Source: Candidatus Electrothrix aarhusensis
GTDB lineage: Bacteria > Desulfobacterota > Desulfobulbia > Desulfobulbales > Desulfobulbaceae
Length of the DNA stretch: 64,000 nt
Assembly (NCBI GenBank): GCA_004028505.1
Contig: MTKO01000081.1
Location: 1-64,000 of the forward strand
Reading direction: 5' to 3'
Part shown: in pieces, positions 29,448-33,395 of the stretch
Position numbering within the stretch: the stretch's first letter is position 1
Layout of the letters: each line of letters begins with the position of its first letter
Notes under the pieces: generated by a model
Databases searched by the model: none
What the model was told of the DNA's origin: nothing
The model's input: only the letters and a program-made list of their open reading frames with translations
Position numbers and translations under genes: made by a program

Positions 29448-30240
29448 GCACTCCACAGTACTGCTTCGTAAGTTTTTACGTTTGCCCCCTTCAACGGAAC
29501 GGGACTCTTCTGTTTGTTATTGAGTCTTTCTTTAGCAACCCCTCAGTAGTTCATCACACCAAATTTTCAGCGTATCCAAATCTCAGAAGGAACGCCCTGT
29601 GTTTTACGTCACACCTCTCCCAAACGCTCCAATGCAGGGCAACTCATTTTTCCCACTCATCTTCAATGAACCTTATTAAAAAAATGCGACTTTCCCTTCT
29701 TTATGTGTGTATAAAATATACATGCAATATGGAACGAGCGTTTATTGGATTGTCAAGAAAAATTAAAATAATATCTTTTTCCTTTTAAAAACAAACGGTA
29801 AAAACAAATAATACACCCACCTGTTAAAACAGGCACAATTCTAGCTTTACCAAAGATGATTGCGTAACATGTTAAATTTATTAAACATAACAAAGATAAC
29901 AAATAAACACCACGCTGCGGTACATAATGTCATTATTGATAAACTTTTTATTGACCTCAAAAAAAGAAGTTACTGTCTTCGTAAAAGCCAAAAACAAAGG
30001 GTAAGTGTACTTCATGAGGATATTTTCAGATGACCATCTGTTGCTCATTGTCGCCAATAAAAAACAAACATTTGATACTGATATTTTTCACTGCATATTT
30101 TATTGATGTAAGATGTAACCTTTTTCCCCAGCAGGCTACTTAAAAGTCTGTGAGTTTTAAAATCGAAGAAAAACCGACTGCTCACGCCTTAAAGCATTTC
30201 TAACCGGGTGCAGTTGTATTTTAACAAATGGCAATCCTTA
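29448..30240. other. Long A/T-rich intergenic stretch before the riboswitch
   Basis: About 790 bases with no convincing open frame or RNA signature. T and A runs are frequent. It should contain the promoter for the riboswitch transcript, but none stands out. The first 100 bases could hold the end of the gyrA-gpsA transcript; no clear terminator hairpin was found. Confidence 0.4.
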
Positions 30241-30248
30241 GTTAAACT

Positions 30249-30362
30249 AAGCGGGTGCCTGCTTTCCGGTCGAAAACGGAAAGTTGATAAAGCCACAGCC
30301 GTCGCGAGACGGTGTCGGAAAGCCACGGGTCTCCATAAAGGAGACAGCCGGGTTGCCTGCTT
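30249..30362 (+). promoter_or_regulatory. GEMM-type riboswitch aptamer (c-di-GMP-I or cGAMP class)
   Basis: The 3' half matches the GEMM consensus: AAAGCCACGGGTCT, a short stem (GTCTCC 30329-30334 / GGAGAC 30340-30345), then CAGCCGGGTTGCC. Just before it is the second GEMM helix, CCGTC-GCGA-GACGG (30299-30312), capped by a GNRA tetraloop that would dock in the other arm. AAGCGGG (30249-30255) can pair with CCTGCTT (30356-30362) to close the whole element, and an extra hairpin (CTTTCCG 30262-30268 / CGGAAAG 30277-30283) sits inside that closing helix. The 5' half is less canonical. The next gene is about 310 bases downstream on the same strand. Whether c-di-GMP or cGAMP is bound cannot be decided by eye. 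Confidence 0.75.
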
Positions 30363-30442
30363 TTATCTGTAACCTCTATCGGAAAGTATGTTATGAGAAC
30401 TCTATTCCATTCAAGTAGTTTTTCACTCGTATCGGCAAGCCA

Positions 30443-30593
30443 GCACCCGCCACCCTCCTCAGTCTTTCGCACAGTACCGTTTACCGGTTTCAGGCAGCAG
30501 AACGAGAACAGAACCAGAATCGTACTGCTCTAATATCCTTTTTCAGGATCCCTAAGACTATAGCAACCCGCAAAAATCCATACCGGATTTTTT
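30443..30593 (+). promoter_or_regulatory. Probable expression platform: competing helix and terminator
   Basis: GCACCCGC at 30443-30450 is the exact complement of GCGGGTGC at 30251-30258, which overlaps the 5' strand of the aptamer's closing helix, so the two pairings exclude each other. Further on, AAAAATCC (30572-30579) pairs with GGATTTTT (30585-30592), with a T-run inside and after the stem: a weak terminator about 80 bases before the gene. Together these would let ligand binding decide read-through. The pairings are visible; the switching is inferred. Confidence 0.5.
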
Positions 30594-30673
30594 GTTTACA
30601 TTACTTTTTTCATACGAAATAACAATTCATTTCGTACAATTAACAATACTGTCAAGAGGTAGTAAAAAGCATC

Positions 30674-31588
30674 ATGAAACAAACACACGTCACTAAAAAA
30701 CTCATATATCTGCCAGCCAGATATCTTTTGGCCTTAACAGCCGTCACAGCTCTATTTTTCTGCACAGAAGTATCAGCAAATGCATCAGCAGATGACGTAC
30801 ATGAAATGGCTAACATTTGCATGCAGGCCAACCGCATCTTAAAGGATTATGCCCTTGTCGGCATGGGGGTGGAGTATCACGATCCAGCCAAAGACTTAAA
30901 AGAAGATCTTGATCTTATTGAAAAAGAAATTAAGGATCTTGAAGGGCATAAGCAGAACGAAAAATTGGCCGCAGAGATTGTGGAGATCGAAACGTCTTGG
31001 CATGCCATTAAGCCTGAATTCGAGAAGACACCTGACAAAACCAAAATGCAGAATCTTCACGATATGGTTGAGAAATTTACCGGTCGCTGTGAGGAAATCG
31101 CCGAAGATATATCCAAGGACACCGGTATAAAGGGAGAGCATGATGTGGTTTTGGTGGCTGAGCTGGGCATGGAATCACAACGTCTGGCCGCACTCTATCT
31201 GATGAAATCATGGGGAGTAGTTGATCCTAACTATGATAAAGAGATTAAAGGGATCGTTGATCAAACAGAGAACATATATAAAGAGCTTCTGAACGCAGAT
31301 GAAAAATTTGTTTCCAAGGAGATTAAAGAACAGCTACAAAAAGTTGAAAAAGATTTCATCGCCTTCAGTGTGATGGCAACCAGTACAACAGGACGCTTCA
31401 TGCCTTCAGCTGCTGAAAAAATGGCGACAAAAATCTTCAAGACCCTTCATGAGATCCTGAATAAGGAACAAAAGTTCGTTGAGGGGAATGTATCATATTT
31501 TACACCGATCGCTGACGAAAAAACAGCAGGTGAAATTTTTAGAGTACTAACCGGAATTGTACGTGTAGAGGGAGAAATCAAATCATGA
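30674..31588 (+). CDS. Exported helical protein, PilJ/NarX-type sensor domain-like (copy 1, gene A)
   Basis: A 304-aa protein with a signal peptide (LLALTAVTALFFCTEVSA; likely cut before NASADD). The mature part is all helix. It resembles the type IV pilus PilJ / nitrate-sensor four-helix domain: ICMQANRILKDYALVGMG, and ELGMESQRLAALYLMKSWGV in the middle. It has no transmembrane or signalling domain after the signal, so it would be free in the periplasm. It overlaps gene B of its pair by 4 bases (ATGA). The pair is repeated downstream at 32478-34195 with roughly 80 percent identity by eye. It is probably controlled by the upstream riboswitch. Family call is tentative; function unknown. Confidence 0.7.
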   Translation: MKQTHVTKKLIYLPARYLLALTAVTALFFCTEVSANASADDVHEMANICMQANRILKDYALVGMGVEYHDPAKDLKEDLDLIEKEIKDLEGHKQNEKLAAEIVEIETSWHAIKPEFEKTPDKTKMQNLHDMVEKFTGRCEEIAEDISKDTGIKGEHDVVLVAELGMESQRLAALYLMKSWGVVDPNYDKEIKGIVDQTENIYKELLNADEKFVSKEIKEQLQKVEKDFIAFSVMATSTTGRFMPSAAEKMATKIFKTLHEILNKEQKFVEGNVSYFTPIADEKTAGEIFRVLTGIVRVEGEIKS

Positions 31589-32385
31589 AATTAGCCATTA
31601 TGAAAACACTGAAGATATCGACAGCAGCAGTTATCTGCGCACTGTACTTTACCCCTGCAATAGCCTCTGAAAAAACGCATGAGCTTCTTATGCTGGAGGC
31701 TGCAAAAAATATTGAATTTCTCAGTCAGAGGGTCACCAAGGCATATTTTTACAAACAGCAAGGCGTCCGCCCGGACCATGCGGCAGAGGATTTGAAAAAA
31801 AGCCTTATTTTGTTGCAAGAAGATATGACCATTATTCAGGATGGTATTGATAATGATAAGAAAGAAAAGAATATATCTGTCTTCCTTGAATACACCATGA
31901 GTGAGTTGAAAAGTATTGTTGAAAACCCCTATAGCCAAGAGAACGGGGCATTAATGATCGATTACAGTGAGTCTCTATTGGAAGGCGCTGAATTTATAGC
32001 AGAAGTTCATACACATAAGAATCAGGCCGAAGAAGCAATGCTGGTCTCAGCAGAGCATTCACTTTTCCTCCTGGAGCGTATCAATAAATTCTACATTGCT
32101 TACCAGGCGGGATTTAAAGACTACAATAACATCGTGCAGCTGAAGCAGGCTGTGCAGGATTTTGAGACCACACTGGCCAAAATTAATGCATATACTAAAT
32201 ACTCGGGAAATATTTTAGCCAGTAGGAATAAAATAAACGATTTCTGGCCTGTAGCTAAAGAATTTTTCGTCGATATTCAAAGAGGTGCCCTGCCGGTCAT
32301 CGTCCAGGCTTCAGTTGAAAAGTTGGAAAAAGAGCTGAAGGTATTGAAAGACTTCCACCATAATAATGCGAGTTCGGGCAAATAA
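31585..32385 (+). CDS. Exported helical protein, PilJ-like (copy 1, gene B)
   Basis: A 266-aa product starting at the overlap ATG 31585. A signal peptide (ISTAAVICALYFTPAIA) is followed by an all-helical body with the PilJ-like opening LMLEAAKNIEFLSQRVTKAYF. Further features are LLEGAEFIAEVHTHK and SLFLLERINKFYIAYQAGF, which read like paired antiparallel helices of a sensor bundle. It is only weakly similar to gene A, but the same two-helix patterns recur, so the two may form a heteromer. A close paralogue is at 33392-34195. There is no membrane anchor or enzyme motif. Confidence 0.68.
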   Translation: MKLAIMKTLKISTAAVICALYFTPAIASEKTHELLMLEAAKNIEFLSQRVTKAYFYKQQGVRPDHAAEDLKKSLILLQEDMTIIQDGIDNDKKEKNISVFLEYTMSELKSIVENPYSQENGALMIDYSESLLEGAEFIAEVHTHKNQAEEAMLVSAEHSLFLLERINKFYIAYQAGFKDYNNIVQLKQAVQDFETTLAKINAYTKYSGNILASRNKINDFWPVAKEFFVDIQRGALPVIVQASVEKLEKELKVLKDFHHNNASSGK

Positions 32386-32477: not shown

Positions 32478-33395
32478 ATGAAGAGAAAACACAGCGGTAA
32501 AAAACACACCTATTTGGCAGTCAGATATCTCCTCACCTTAACAGCCTTCACAACGTTATTTTTTTGTAGCGAGGTGTCGGCAAATGCATCAGCCAAAGAT
32601 GTCCATGAAATGGCTGATATTTGTATGCAGGCCAATCGTATCTTAAAGGACTATGCTCTGGTCGGCATGGGTGTAAAGCATCATGATCCTGCTCAGGACT
32701 TGAAAGAGAATCTTGAGATTATTGAGAAAGAAATCAAGGATCTTGAAGGGCATAAGCAGAACGAAAAAATAACAGCAGAGATTGTGGAGATCGAAAAATC
32801 CTGGCATGCCATAAAGCCTGAATTCGAGAAAACGCCGGGCAAATCAAAAATGCACGATCTGTTTGTTATGGTGGGAAATTTTACTGATCGATGTGAGGAG
32901 ATCGCCGATGATATCGCCAAGGACACCGGCATCAAGGGGGAGCATAATGTCGTTCTTGTCGCCGAACTGGGCATGGAGTCACAGCGGATGGCTGCCCTTT
33001 ACCTGATAAAGGCATGGGGTGTGGATGATCCTGACTACGAAAAAGAGGTCAAAAATATCGTTGAACAAACCGAAAAAATATACAAAGAGCTCCTTGAAGC
33101 AGATGAAAAACTTGTTTCTAAAGAGATCAAAGAACAACTGCAAAAGGTTGAAAAAGATTTCATCGCCTTCAGTGTGATGGCGACCAGTACAACAGGTCGT
33201 TTTATGCCTTCAGCCGCTGAGAAAATGGCGACAAAAATTTTCAAGGCACTTCGTGACATCTTGAAAAAGGAACAGAAACTGGTTGAGGGGACTGTATCAG
33301 GATATTTTACGCCAATCGCTGACGAGAAAACAGCAGGCGAAATTTTCAGGGTACTCACCGAAATTGTCCATGTAAAGGGAGAGATCGGATCATGA
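32478..33395 (+). CDS. Exported helical protein, PilJ-like (copy 2, gene A)
   Basis: A 305-aa paralogue of the 30674 gene; long stretches are identical, such as EQLQKVEKDFIAFSVMATST and the helix around ELGMESQRMAALYLIKAWGV. It has a signal peptide (LLTLTAFTTLFFCSEVSA). ATG 32478 has GGAAGCAGAG upstream. Changes concentrate in the loop after WGV and in helix two, as expected if ligand preference has drifted. It overlaps its gene B by 4 bases exactly as copy 1 does, so the whole two-gene unit was duplicated in tandem. Confidence 0.7.
   Translation: MKRKHSGKKHTYLAVRYLLTLTAFTTLFFCSEVSANASAKDVHEMADICMQANRILKDYALVGMGVKHHDPAQDLKENLEIIEKEIKDLEGHKQNEKITAEIVEIEKSWHAIKPEFEKTPGKSKMHDLFVMVGNFTDRCEEIADDIAKDTGIKGEHNVVLVAELGMESQRMAALYLIKAWGVDDPDYEKEVKNIVEQTEKIYKELLEADEKLVSKEIKEQLQKVEKDFIAFSVMATSTTGRFMPSAAEKMATKIFKALRDILKKEQKLVEGTVSGYFTPIADEKTAGEIFRVLTEIVHVKGEIGS

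Follow-up and report, generated by a model that had tools for sequence, protein, structure and literature searches.

In the genome of Candidatus Electrothrix aarhusensis, a riboswitch of GEMM type stands upstream of a duplicated block of genes for PilJ-like exported proteins, raising the question of which ligand it binds, how it is connected to an output and whether it controls these genes. The locus lies in a stretch of 64,000 nucleotides, referred to here as the window (assembly GCA_004028505.1, contig MTKO01000081.1, positions 1 to 64,000). An earlier note on this DNA, made from the sequence alone, had proposed a strand exchange and a terminator as the output and had drawn a comparison with Geobacter-like bacteria; the organism is a cable bacterium.

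Scoring against Rfam covariance models, which the earlier note had proposed, gave a significant match and bore out the GEMM assignment. The segment at 30283-30361 (+) is a GEMM/c-di-GMP-I aptamer, with 66.8 bits for RF03168 (gathering cut-off 65.9, E 2.8e-12) and 60.3 bits for RF01051 (gathering cut-off 35), and was the sole Rfam match at gathering level in the 64-kb window. The GEMM 3' core strings and the GNRA helix described before are both present, the latter with a GCGA loop (Table 1). The aptamer fold, the GNRA loop and the contact nucleotides G20, A47 and C92 are shared with RF01051 (GEMM-I) riboswitches such as Vc2 of Vibrio cholerae, in which these three positions contact c-di-GMP (PMC4744006). 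Judging from the model consensus, the names GGC and UAU of the Rfam models appear to spell out the three contact nucleotides. RF03168 (c-di-GMP-I-UAU) is the best-scoring model for the window, where its top score exceeds the cut-off by merely 0.9 bit, and the window aptamer reads G-A-C at the naming positions in contrast to the U-A-U of that model. By its letters, the label 'UAU' is misleading for this copy. Given these contacts, a ligand of the UAU variant is unsupported and c-di-GMP is the expected ligand.

Riboswitches for cGAMP (GEMM-Ib) carry A at the position of G20. The diagnostic position of the window copy is G30292, and the earlier suggestion of cGAMP sensing is therefore unsupported here; c-di-GMP, not cGAMP, is what the sequence leads us to expect. 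Rfam searches found 27 c-di-GMP-I riboswitches in the genome, and G occupies position 20 in all of them. Elsewhere, the aptamer L085 (G018) resembles cGAMP-type aptamers in carrying A at position 20, and orthologous copies in three species (L083 in G018, L097 in G027 and L121 in G055) have U in place of C at C92 (GUUGUCUGC), with which their ligand preference may differ. One GGDEF domain encoded in the E. aarhusensis genome (L075, G000:C62:29181-29648) has Thr (GHHAGT) where most others have the canonical Asp, and might make another dinucleotide, so that a cGAMP enzyme is conceivable in this genome.

The output was addressed by comparing copies. An alignment of the 27 copies from the same genome showed CUUUCYGG ... 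GGAAAG immediately 5' of the aptamer, and a Shine-Dalgarno site and start codon usually 20-35 nt past it. Strand A (CUUUCYGG) has two alternative partners, the GGAAAG strand B, with which it forms the hairpin P0, and strand D in the Shine-Dalgarno region, typically CCAGGAGG or CCGGGAGG across copies. In a set of 65 distinct A/D pairs drawn from 12 genomes, the pairing energy was -12.7 kcal/mol for true partners vs -10.9 kcal/mol for permuted ones (0/2000 permutations), in a statistic that, like the other permutations and shuffles reported here, ignores kinship among copies; the support held separately for the window genome alone and for the other genomes alone. On a 26-copy alignment, 96.2% of the A:D cells held standard pairs and double changes numbered 14 (0/500 shuffles), compared with 41-63% of cells paired in slid versions. 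The A:B pairing was likewise supported by covariation, both by permutation (0/2000, 65 copies) and in the alignment test. Furthermore, a single column of A, holding either C or U, changes together with one column of B and also with one of D, the pattern that two helices excluding each other would give. The helix P1 (B:C) was paired in 96.9% of cells in 26 copies with almost no covariation; the permutation test for B:C gave 11/2000. Pairing of C, which follows the aptamer, with the Shine-Dalgarno site in D was unsupported, 1992 of 2000 permutations being at least as good. The comparison of sequences supports A:B and A:D as two helices that are both kept by covariation and unable to coexist, the alternative pairing by which a translational riboswitch with an anti-Shine-Dalgarno strand is recognised.

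Table 1. Features of the riboswitch, its leader and the downstream gene block (positions in the window).
Feature	Position	Strand	Basis
Inverted repeat GGCA...UGCC, either an RNA hairpin or a piece of the promoter region	30230..30259	+	In many of 27 copies, paired changes judged by eye
Strand A, GCUUUCCGGU (P0, 5' arm; anti-Shine-Dalgarno strand)	30261..30270	+	Covaries with B and D
Strand B, CGGAAAG (P0, 3' arm; P1, 5' strand)	30277..30283	+	A:B, 0/2000 permutations
c-di-GMP-I aptamer	30283..30361	+	Rfam matches, position mapping
Putative ligand contacts G30292 (G20), A30319 (A47), C30356 (C92)	within 30283..30361	+	Rfam alignments
P2 GCGA (GNRA) loop	30304-30307	+	Sequence
Strand C, CUUUU (P1, 3' strand, opposite B)	30360..30364	+	Pairing conserved
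Strand D, AUCGGAAAGU, Shine-Dalgarno region	30378..30387	+	10-bp pairing with A, -15.2 kcal/mol
Shine-Dalgarno site GGAAAG	30381-30386	+	Inside strand D
Leader ORF, 46 codons, with the controlled start codon	30393..30533	+	Translation; frame not conserved among relatives
AT-rich hairpin before the gene, AAAAATCC-ATACC-GGATTTTT	30572..30592	+	Paired changes by eye in several orthologues
PilJ-like exported protein, 304 aa	30674..31588	+	PF13675 22.5 bits (cut-off 26.6); structural matches PilJ, McpN
Second exported protein of the pair, 266 aa	31585..32385	+	ORF list
Duplicate of the first protein, 305 aa, 81% identical	32478..33395	+	PF13675 28.6 bits, above cut-off; alignment
Duplicate of the second protein, 267 aa	33392..34195	+	ORF list

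The window riboswitch is probably a c-di-GMP-I riboswitch with an anti-Shine-Dalgarno strand on its 5' side that works as an OFF switch. P0 would fold first and, without ligand, B would hold A and leave the Shine-Dalgarno site open. By bridging both sides of the aptamer, c-di-GMP would stabilise P1 and take B, and A, once released, would capture D and block translation. The exclusive pairing itself rests on sequence, and the OFF direction is what we infer from it. The unconstrained fold of the window segment contained A:D plus most of P1. When P1 and the aptamer were forced, mean accessibility of the Shine-Dalgarno site was 0.10 vs 0.38 with P0 forced, and the site was less accessible under P1 in 60 of 67 copies. 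The site of the window copy, at 0.00 (P1 forced) vs 0.17 (P0 forced), was not very open in either state. In the energy model the closed state was favoured by about 5 kcal/mol, averaged over copies, even without ligand, so switching may rest on kinetics. The same two helices could also make an ON switch, in which the ligand-bound aptamer would keep P0 and leave the site open. The terminator-type copies of relatives resemble the ON design of the pilM type (PMC9262584), from which an ON output could be ancestral, and P1 has little covariation; however, the ligand ties the 5' side of the aptamer to its 3' side, which should give the enclosing helices (A:D and P1) the advantage over a local hairpin, and in the model the site closes when P1 is forced. 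We regard an ON switch as rather unlikely.

The strand exchange put forward in the earlier note was a different one, in which GCGGGTGC (30251-30258) would pair either with the aptamer end or with GCACCCGC (30443-30450), followed by a terminator before the gene. The two strands are indeed exact complements over 8 bp, and their helix is present in the unconstrained fold of the full leader. However, a complement of at least 8 between the aptamer region and the leader occurred in 38.5% of dinucleotide shuffles, among the other orthologous leaders only that of E. marina (L066) has GCACCCGC, and this strand was absent near the other copies of the same genome that share the 5' strand. Given this chance rate and the scarce conservation among orthologues and paralogues, the helix was rejected as a conserved switch, and with a hairpin before the gene that does not qualify as a terminator, we consider the scheme as a whole very improbable. 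Comparison across copies also speaks against the GCGGG strand (30251 on) as the closing strand of the aptamer. A P1 formed by GCGGGU and the aptamer end is possible in a subset of copies only, and B:C is preferred. The strand 30251-30258 lies within the inverted repeat at 30230..30259. A further complement joins CGGGTTGC at the aptamer end to GCAACCCG near 30563, at a length (8-mers) expected by chance.

The duplicated gene block with PilJ-like proteins was upheld by the ORF list, the PF13675 search, the alignment and structural matches. In the first pair, the start of the second gene overlaps the stop of the first. No significant family match was found for the second exported protein (31585..32385), and an NCBIfam search of the gene block gave no informative match. 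The AlphaFold model of the PilJ-like protein is all helical, with moderate confidence (pLDDT 60), and its best structural matches were NasR (Z 13.5), McpN (12.2) and PilJ (11.9). The match to McpN and PilJ covers about 115 residues (about 36-150) at Z 11.9-12.2, which is below the safe level for helical bundles, and Foldseek E-values for the model were not significant. The predicted bundle over these residues is suggestive of a PilJ-type ligand-binding fold. It may correspond to the ligand-binding domain of PilJ and McpN (PF13675), but in contrast to that type the window protein is exported and has no signalling domain in the same ORF.

The earlier note proposed control of the PilJ-like gene; the riboswitch does lie ahead of that gene, but the first start codon after the aptamer belongs elsewhere. 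The controlled start at 30393 opens a 46-codon leader ORF ending at 30533, and the PilJ-like gene begins at 30674, so control of that gene would be indirect. Lost translation of the leader might act on the gene through polarity, Rho-type termination or RNA decay; translational riboswitches of E. coli are coupled to Rho (PMC11487190). Among the copies of the genome, some have a real gene directly at the controlled start, and many have a short ORF first, for which control would have to go through polarity. The leader ORFs of the window (30393-30440), L014, L016, L017 and L037 begin alike (M..LFHSS.FS.RIGK). The window ORF is frameshifted by one base after about 10 codons relative to some paralogues, and its product is therefore probably not conserved.

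Orthologues of the PilJ-like gene were found in 8/8 Electrothrix genomes and in 5/5 genomes of the sister genus, its closest named relatives being in Ca. Electrothrix gigas, E. marina and a Desulfobulbaceae MAG. The placement ahead of PilJ-like exported proteins reported earlier recurs, in that a riboswitch with P0 precedes the orthologue in 7/8 Electrothrix genomes. It is missing in E. gigas, and none was seen before the orthologues of the sister genus. A diverged paralogue in the E. aarhusensis genome (contig C98, 47% identity) also lies downstream of a P0-type copy. These observations bear on the alternative that the riboswitch controls the leader ORF only, leaving the PilJ-like genes on their own promoter and outside c-di-GMP control. 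That the controlled start codon is the leader ORF's and that E. gigas has the gene without the riboswitch would agree with it, but it is at odds with the retention of the riboswitch before the orthologues and before the C98 paralogue, with a leader frame so poorly kept that its product is an unlikely target, and with the outcome of a promoter search, which found no match between the riboswitch and the gene in the window. On balance this alternative seems unlikely. Of the terminator-like hairpin claimed before the gene, the AT-rich hairpin at 30572-30592 exists, but it fails the criteria for an intrinsic terminator. A second inverted repeat (TACGAAAT...ATTTCGTA, 30610-30640) just 5' of the PilJ-like gene recurs in altered form in orthologues. 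Many copies (L012, L013, L015, L019, L023, L024, L026, L033) have a promoter resembling TTGACA-N16-18-TATAAT about 58-90 nt before the aptamer; no good promoter of this kind was found 5' of the window copy. At the start of the diverged paralogue (L061 near 1504, G000:C98:20565), the frame shifts after a run of nine A, which could reflect an assembly error, slippage or decay.

Copies per genome range from 9 to 27 in the genus Ca. Electrothrix (g1), vs 0 to 9 in most other family members, with one exception at 25. P0 was present in 71 of 83 copies from Electrothrix and the sister genus (g10), which is probably Ca. Electronema, compared with 0/47 copies from the other genera of the family. In those genera 39/47 copies were terminator-type, most of them pairing the aptamer 3' strand with a terminator arm, by a loose test that flags some copies of the two cable bacterial genera too. 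A strict DNA pattern, P0 plus aptamer start, was run over genomes of the order (258) and the phylum (395) and gave riboswitch-like matches solely in Electrothrix (8/8 genomes) and the sister genus (3/5); the remaining matches look like isolated chance matches. Genes downstream of other copies in the E. aarhusensis genome encode a GspH-type pilin-like protein, a hemerythrin, a CAP protein, a phosphonate-binding protein and three PEP-CTERM proteins, which fits the expectation for c-di-GMP control. We give roughly even chances to a history in which cable bacteria (Electrothrix and its sister genus) swapped a terminator output for a translational OFF hairpin with an anti-Shine-Dalgarno strand at the 5' side, and in which multiplication of this hairpin built a large regulon, comprising surface, secreted, PEP-CTERM, pilin-like and PilJ-like genes and controlled partly via short leader ORFs.

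The aptamer family is known, and the output device is unusual and restricted to this lineage. Compared with Vc2, the window riboswitch adds the upstream A/B hairpin and the anti-Shine-Dalgarno output 5' of the aptamer; the mechanism of Vc1 and Vc2 was described as unknown (PMC4744006). The pilM cGAMP riboswitch of Geobacter (GEMM-Ib) belongs to the same aptamer clan and also exchanges strands between aptamer and output (PMC9262584), but it senses cGAMP and controls a terminator, whereas the window copy has G at position 20 and its output at the Shine-Dalgarno site. In the literature searched, which left most subscription journals outside, no papers linking cable bacteria with c-di-GMP riboswitches were found. 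If correct, our reading would make a c-di-GMP regulon readable in these hard-to-culture bacteria, with at least 27 sites in a single genome, and would name genes that are candidates for roles in attachment, at the filament surface and in sensing. It would also be a case of a riboswitch family that swaps its output device in one lineage, keeping the aptamer and placing the anti-Shine-Dalgarno strand 5' of it.

A few Electrothrix copies retain a terminator, namely L034 and the triple arrays L108 and L115. Two copies of the E. aarhusensis genome, L034 (G000:C2:8610-8684) and L032 (G000:C64:1951-2029), have a terminator-type output and no P0. The arrays L108 (G047:C1:4045900-4046545) and L115 (G052:C1:4928568-4929213) each consist of three tandem c-di-GMP-I aptamers, most with their own terminator, and the G047 array lies upstream of type VI secretion genes encoding Hcp and a VgrG-like protein (L176:702-4533).
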